Source: Candidatus Altimarinota bacterium (GTDB lineage: Bacteria; Patescibacteriota; Gracilibacteria; BD1-5; UBA6164). Taken from it: a stretch of 37,957 bases of DNA. Of the stretch, positions 606-1,895 are shown one piece after another. The stretch lies in NCBI GenBank assembly GCA_022565555.1, contig JAIUMN010000006.1, positions 1 to 37,957 of the forward strand. The letters are read 5' to 3'. A program made the position numbers and the translations under genes. Below the pieces are notes generated by a model. The model searched no databases. It saw only the letters and a list, made by a program, of their open reading frames with translations, and was not told the DNA's origin. How positions within the stretch are numbered: position 1 is the first letter of the stretch; every line of letters begins with the position of its first letter.

Positions 606-1895
606 ATGAAAAAAATACTCCTCACCTCTTTTCTATCTTTTGTAATACTAGGATTATCAGTTTCAGTCACGACCGCGACAGAAGAGAATCAATCAGGAAA
701 TTTATCTATTCCTATGACTGTATTTGGAGATATAGAATATTCAGAAAATCTTTGATGAGCTACACTCAATATATATAGCACATTAAATACACTACTTAAA
801 TCTCAAATATTATCTTGAAATTCTTATGGAAGTAATGATGCTTTTGAGCTTTCTCAAAGAATCAATCTTAACTCTTTTGAAGGAACTCTGAGATATGAAA
901 TTATCTTATGAAATTTTAAATATTCAAATATATCATTAATCAATGTATGAGATTATTGATGTAATGATACTCTTGTGTTTCAAACCAATAAACTTTGTAA
1001 GTATGATTTTAATTTGAGTAATGCGACTCGAACTATTATTAATCAAACAGTTACTCCAACTCCACCAGTAAGTAGTTGAGGATGAGGTGGATGAGGTGGA
1101 TGAGGTGGATGAGGTGGATGAGGCTGAGCCGGAGGACCTCCTGAAACTTGTACTCGCGAAGTTTTGGAGTGTAGAGAGTATCTTGGATCTTATATATGGC
1201 AAAGAAAAACATGATCTACTTGTAATGGTTGAGATGTATGAAAATCATGTAATGCTACTCCTCAATCGAGTGAAGCAATTCAAAACAATCCTAATGCTAA
1301 TAATACTGTTTTTTCTCCTATCTTTTCTCCAGCTACGTGAAGAGAGGTGCAATCAAGAGTACAGGTTAATACGCATCTAAAATCTGTTGTAAAAAATCAA
1401 GGGGTACGTGTCATTATGGAAAGATATGATATTATAATTCAAGAAAAAGGTTTCAATGATACTCTCATTAAATATATAGCTCTTATCAATCCTGAAGTAC
1501 AAAAATCATATGAGGACTTCCTCTTAAATTATGAAAGCTTGTTCTTGAATATGGATAAATTAGTATGAGATAATAATGAAAGTCTCCGAGAAACAACGAG
1601 AAATAATCTCCTAGTCGTGACAAGAGAATTAAATAGGTTGAGTGAGGTTCATAAAGAACATATTACTATCACAAGTAATTGAATCTTTACTCCTACAGAT
1701 ATTGAGCTTAAGAGGCTTACAGACAGAGTAGAGAGAATAATATTTAGAAATATTGATGTTTCTTGAAATATTGAAATGAAAGAAAGCTATAATAATTTCC
1801 TTCTCACTCTAACCTTATTTCGAAGTAGTAATAATTTTGAGTTACGTGATATTGCTGTAGAGTATCTTCAAAGTGTTATTTCACTCAGGAAATAG
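606..1895 (+). CDS. Exported protein with a 17-glycine linker (429 aa)
   Basis: The ORF uses UGA as glycine throughout. The N-terminus (MKKILLTSFLSFVILGLSVS) is a signal peptide. A first domain of about 130 residues has beta-strand character and contains a few Cys. A linker of 17 consecutive glycines follows at about residues 158-174 (bases 1077-1127), coded by TGA, GGA, GGT and GGC in mixture, then a short Cys-containing stretch. The last 190 residues are charged and probably helical, without a membrane segment. Two exported modules joined by a flexible glycine spacer is the simplest reading. No family was recognised and no function is assigned. Transcription probably starts at the ATG itself, from the -10 box at 593-598. 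Confidence 0.85.
1077..1127 (+). repeat. Glycine-codon repeat (9-bp unit TGAGGTGGA) inside the 606-1895 gene
   Basis: Seventeen glycine codons in a row, seven of them TGA, are built largely from the 9-base unit TGAGGTGGA repeated four times. The interchange of TGA with GGN inside one homopolymer is direct support for UGA = Gly. Such a repeat is prone to slippage in steps of three codons. Confidence 0.9.

Follow-up and report, generated by a model that had tools for sequence, protein, structure and literature searches.

In Gracilibacteria/BD1-5 and Absconditabacteria/SR1, UGA is read as glycine (code 25) (PMC4032931; PMC8629427), a recoding known also from Campbell et al. 2013, as cited in those papers. 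Proteomics on a BD1-5 population has shown the glycine reading (PMC4032931), and in Absconditabacteria the codons CGA and CGG have additionally been described as tryptophan codons (PMC8629427). For repeats in surface proteins of these bacteria, the closest described system is the PTD-repeat surface protein of gracilibacterium 28_42_T64, which is built on a 9-mer tripeptide repeat and shows cell-to-cell heterogeneity (PMC6851277).

Here we analyzed a stretch of 37,957 nucleotides ("the window") that contains a run of glycine codons, many of them TGA, within a predicted surface protein gene. Its genome resembles the other code 25 lineages in having a UCA tRNA with glycine identity, no RF2, and abundant TGA at glycine positions, but differs from Absconditabacteria (PMC8629427) in that CGA stays arginine at the conserved sites examined. 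The locus shares with the PTD-repeat protein the 9-bp units coding for a tripeptide repeat, a predicted extracellular location and a gracilibacterial host. However, the PTD repeat consists of four synonymous 9-mers and has no TGA (PMC6851277), whereas the array in the window is built of a single perfect 9-mer and encodes polyglycine with TGA.

Results

The glycine run lies in a gene whose predicted product is a secreted, multi-domain surface protein. The features of the gene and its neighbor, all on the forward strand of the window, are as follows.

3 to 581, +: C-terminal part of a larger surface protein truncated at the contig end; a paralogue of 1120 aa lies elsewhere in the genome
606 to 1895, +: gene encoding 429 aa in code 25, with 20 in-frame TGA codons; predicted secreted surface protein
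606 to 677, +: signal-peptide-like N terminus, MKKILLTSFLSFVILGLSVSVTTA, as read by eye
705 to 1025, +: N-terminal domain with the motif PM...G...YG.N.F...F.G.L...C....C.Y, from an alignment (A3) with three other genomes
1077 to 1127, +: 17 consecutive glycine codons, codons 158 to 174 of the open reading frame
1080 to 1123, +: perfect 9-bp tandem array, GGATGAGGT in 4.9 copies (Tandem Repeats Finder, 100% matches, no indels)
1149 to 1250, +: cysteine module, CX6C...K.G..C...G..C, directly 3' of the glycine hinge
1323 to 1892, +: C-terminal domain, probably helical according to a low-confidence model; related to the C terminus of the G017 homologue and, less closely, to that of G075

The N terminus looks like a signal peptide by its sequence, and homologues have a similar start, with MKKI or MNKKI and a hydrophobic stretch. 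The protein otherwise falls outside the domain libraries: it had no Pfam match (SLH domains included), and NCBIfam gave one weak match far under the cut-off. In a PDB profile search, the N-terminal domain had no match, and the module and C terminus had chance-level matches only. AlphaFold2 run on the single sequence returned a useless model (mean pLDDT 31.6). The upstream piece is 61% identical to the C terminus of the TGA-free 1120-aa protein on C13 and, unlike that paralogue, holds 2 TGA codons. An Adeno_hexon (Pfam) hit for this upstream ORF was under the cut-off and judged spurious. Homology between this ORF and those lying upstream of the homologues in G018 and G021 would have pointed to a conserved gene pair, but the test did not support it.

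A scan of genome contigs with the single protein found no relative. Across 60 genomes, the window's own included, 7 others had a match to the protein; each belongs to the window's family but lies outside its genus, whose seven other genomes had none. These homologues have a common layout of a signal-like N terminus, a variable N-terminal part, a Gly-rich linker, a module of about 34 residues with four conserved cysteines, and a C-terminal domain. The C termini differ among homologues and appear SLH-like by eye in some (L087, L088, L089). Searched with a profile of the module (A1), 77 genomes of the order gave hits in 17, all of which belong to the window's family; 25 genes carry the module in these 17 genomes. 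Among nine module-bearing sequences, no Pfam family was hit by two or more. A class-wide sample added a single genome, from a different family, with a glycine linker of the same kind; there, a mixed TGA/GGN glycine linker accompanies the cysteine module (G106:C1:600000-603500, L150).

Linkers before the module contain 121 TGA and 123 GGN codons over the 25 genes, and one of them (L098) has seven TGAs in a row. Because three of the module genes (L104, L107, L114) have almost no glycine run, a long hinge is not obligatory.

Glycine-rich hinges occur in modular bacterial surface proteins, and the linker described here is likewise a low-complexity flexible spacer between domains. The window's hinge family differs from such hinges in general by its fixed place immediately ahead of a conserved cysteine module, and by UGA making up about half of its glycine codons. 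We regard the combination of hinge and cysteine module as a modestly interesting, undescribed and modest family of surface proteins, having found no earlier description of it. In a broader and tentative reading, which we judge less likely than not, the two would form a mobile surface module not described before, belonging to the Gracilibacteria class and fused to varied display domains at the N terminus and varied anchors at the C terminus; its hinge would change length by slippage and so tune reach towards prey or host cells.

The run itself is exactly as first read from the sequence: 17 in-frame glycine codons, comprising 7 TGA, 5 GGA, 4 GGT and 1 GGC, in the order TGA GGA, then TGA GGT GGA four times, then TGA GGC TGA. 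No other glycine run in the genome approaches this length, the next longest being 9, 8 and 7 codons. An 18-mer core occurs four times with up to 3 mismatches, against 0.01 expected from shuffles, which is far more than chance would give. The original prediction explained the mix of TGA, GGA and GGT by synonymous drift within the repeat. The repeats do not bear this out: the 9-mers are 100% identical, as expected from unit duplication, and the TGAs in the array are strictly periodic and not mutually independent. Since the array is perfectly periodic, the mix must have sat in one unit (GGA TGA GGT) that was then copied, and the seven TGAs consequently amount to about one or two independent observations. 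The 9-mer doublet was found in none of the 47 other family genomes (48 searched, its own included), so the array is probably recent.

Length differences among related linkers bear on how such an array changes. Linkers differ in length between module genes, and the differences are in frame both between paralogues and between genera. In the complete genome G024 (CP042461.1, titled gracilibacterium 28_42_T64), which is probably the genome of the PTD-repeat protein, four hinge-plus-module paralogues have a similar module beside the linker, TGA/GGA swaps inside and outside the linker, and in-frame linker gaps of 15, 9 and 6 nt. These gaps fit the prediction of length change by slippage, which draws its support from these paralogues in another genome.

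The window's array likewise consists of the perfect short in-frame units of a slippage-prone coding repeat (VNTR/contingency locus). The run could be a contingency locus whose repeat number differs from cell to cell and so adjusts the reach or antigenicity of the surface protein, as proposed for variable repeats in other surface proteins. A perfect 9-mer array found, within the family, in this genome alone and the in-frame indels among the G024 linkers agree with such a role, as does the cell-to-cell heterogeneity of a 9-mer tripeptide-repeat surface protein in another gracilibacterium (PMC6851277). We nevertheless think this improbable, as 4.9 copies make a short array and a 9-bp unit cannot switch a gene on or off.

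The run was originally taken as internal evidence that UGA encodes glycine. From the run alone this evidence is weak for the reason given above, and the less periodic glycine runs of the same genome (GGA TGA GGA GGT TGA GGT GGT GGA TGA and GGG TGA TGA TGA GGT TGA TGA GGT) serve better. The argument holds where the interchange of TGA and GGN is genuine, namely in related linkers and in aligned genes. Genome-wide work, which covers 1,021,523 of 1,022,299 bases of a genome that is 97.7% complete, found that TGA makes up 45% of glycine codons (9339 codons) and that 874 of 898 ORFs contain it. In Der, AspRS, RF1 and Obg, aligned after TGA was masked as X, 21 of 29 aligned TGA positions, counted by hand, face glycine in the best solved homologue and 0 face tryptophan. 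In 23 masked Der genes (the window's and 22 relatives), TGA mismatch partners were glycine codons in 2752 of 3660 pairs, which are not independent of one another, and never tryptophan. The nearest Der relatives are 60 to 78% identical and most matching records are titled Ca. Gracilibacteria, which agrees with the predicted placement of the organism.

The decoding machinery comprises the following.

L034:7115-7193, +: tRNA-Gly(UCA), found by ARAGORN and labeled SeC from its anticodon
L081:1450-2586, -: RF1-type release factor, whose best solved relatives are RF1 structures

The search suggested at the outset, for a tRNA(UCA) bearing glycine identity elements, was successful. This is the one UCA tRNA that ARAGORN found in the genome, and it is not among the genome's 34 Rfam tRNA matches. 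It has a 7-bp acceptor stem (GCGGGGG/CCCCCGC) and CCA, and its G1:C72, C2:G71, G3:C70 and U73 are the same identity elements as in tRNA-Gly(UCC) and agree with published elements for glycine identity (PMC8629427). A separate tRNA-Trp(CCA) is present in the ARAGORN list. The tRNA-Gly species in that list are UCC and UCA only, GCC not being found, and tRNA-Lys(UUU) is likewise missing, so some tRNAs may have escaped the list. In the 97.7% complete genome a single release factor was found, of RF1 type, and no RF2. The first glycine of its GGQ motif is written TGA. E. coli RF1 has PAT at the position where this factor carries PET.

We conclude that the assignment of UGA to glycine (code 25) in this genome, as originally predicted, is well supported; the recoding is already known, and it is confirmed here for one more genome. 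Two other readings of the TGA codons retain next to no probability. If TGA were a stop, the locus would be either non-coding repeat DNA or read in another frame as an Asp-Glu-Val repeat (97-aa ORF, 1087 to 1380), and with the standard code the GAT GAG GTG frame indeed stays open over 97 codons. We rejected this reading, as homologues match both flanks of the run in the poly-Gly frame, that frame has 0 TAA/TAG outside the run against 18 and 34 in the other two, and the genome, at 97.7% completeness, has a glycine-type tRNA(UCA) and no RF2. UGA as tryptophan or selenocysteine, the latter suggested by the SeC label, is just as negligible and is contradicted by the 7-bp stem, glycine identity elements and U73 of the tRNA, by the lack of any SelB above the cut-off in the genome, by the separate tRNA-Trp(CCA) and by the absence of tryptophan from the 3660 aligned partners.

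Use of TGA is uneven between genes. The median share of TGA among glycine codons is 44% per ORF (ORFs with at least 15 glycines), and the following genes have none.

L020:5385-6581, -: EF-Tu, 0 of 42 glycine codons TGA
L067:5895-6587, +: ribosomal protein L1, 0 of 23
L031:2047-2418, -: ribosomal protein L7/L12, 0 of 17
L069:9713-13072, +: 1120-aa protein with no NCBIfam match, 0 of 82

Across the order, the TGA count ranges from 0 to 24 (G017) in full-length EF-Tu and from 0 to 25 (G009) in Der. These codon counts could reflect selection against UGA-Gly in genes with high expression.

Discussion

Most likely, the glycine codons encode, in frame, a flexible polyglycine hinge within a multi-domain surface protein that is secreted by a gracilibacterium reading UGA as glycine; the hinge would have been made by duplication or slippage of a 9-bp unit and would join a display domain to a cysteine module and a C-terminal domain. 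Judging from the genes present, tRNA-Gly(UCA) would decode the TGA codons, with no RF2 to terminate there. Tandem duplication or slippage of GGA TGA GGT probably lengthened the hinge in this lineage; this unit codes for Gly-Gly-Gly, so that its duplication cannot break the frame. The domain order suggests that the hinge links the N-terminal display domain to the cysteine module and C-terminal domain, and a flexible spacer is its most likely function. By analogy, the C-terminal domain would probably anchor the protein to the cell surface.

A perfect repeat that contains many recoded codons should count as close to one observation and not as seven, which corrects a tempting but weak argument for codon reassignment. 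If genes with typically high expression indeed avoid UGA-Gly, the cost of a recoded codon would become testable. Finally, surface proteins of these bacteria, which are uncultured and probably depend on hosts, could be recognized by the hinge-plus-cysteine-module architecture.
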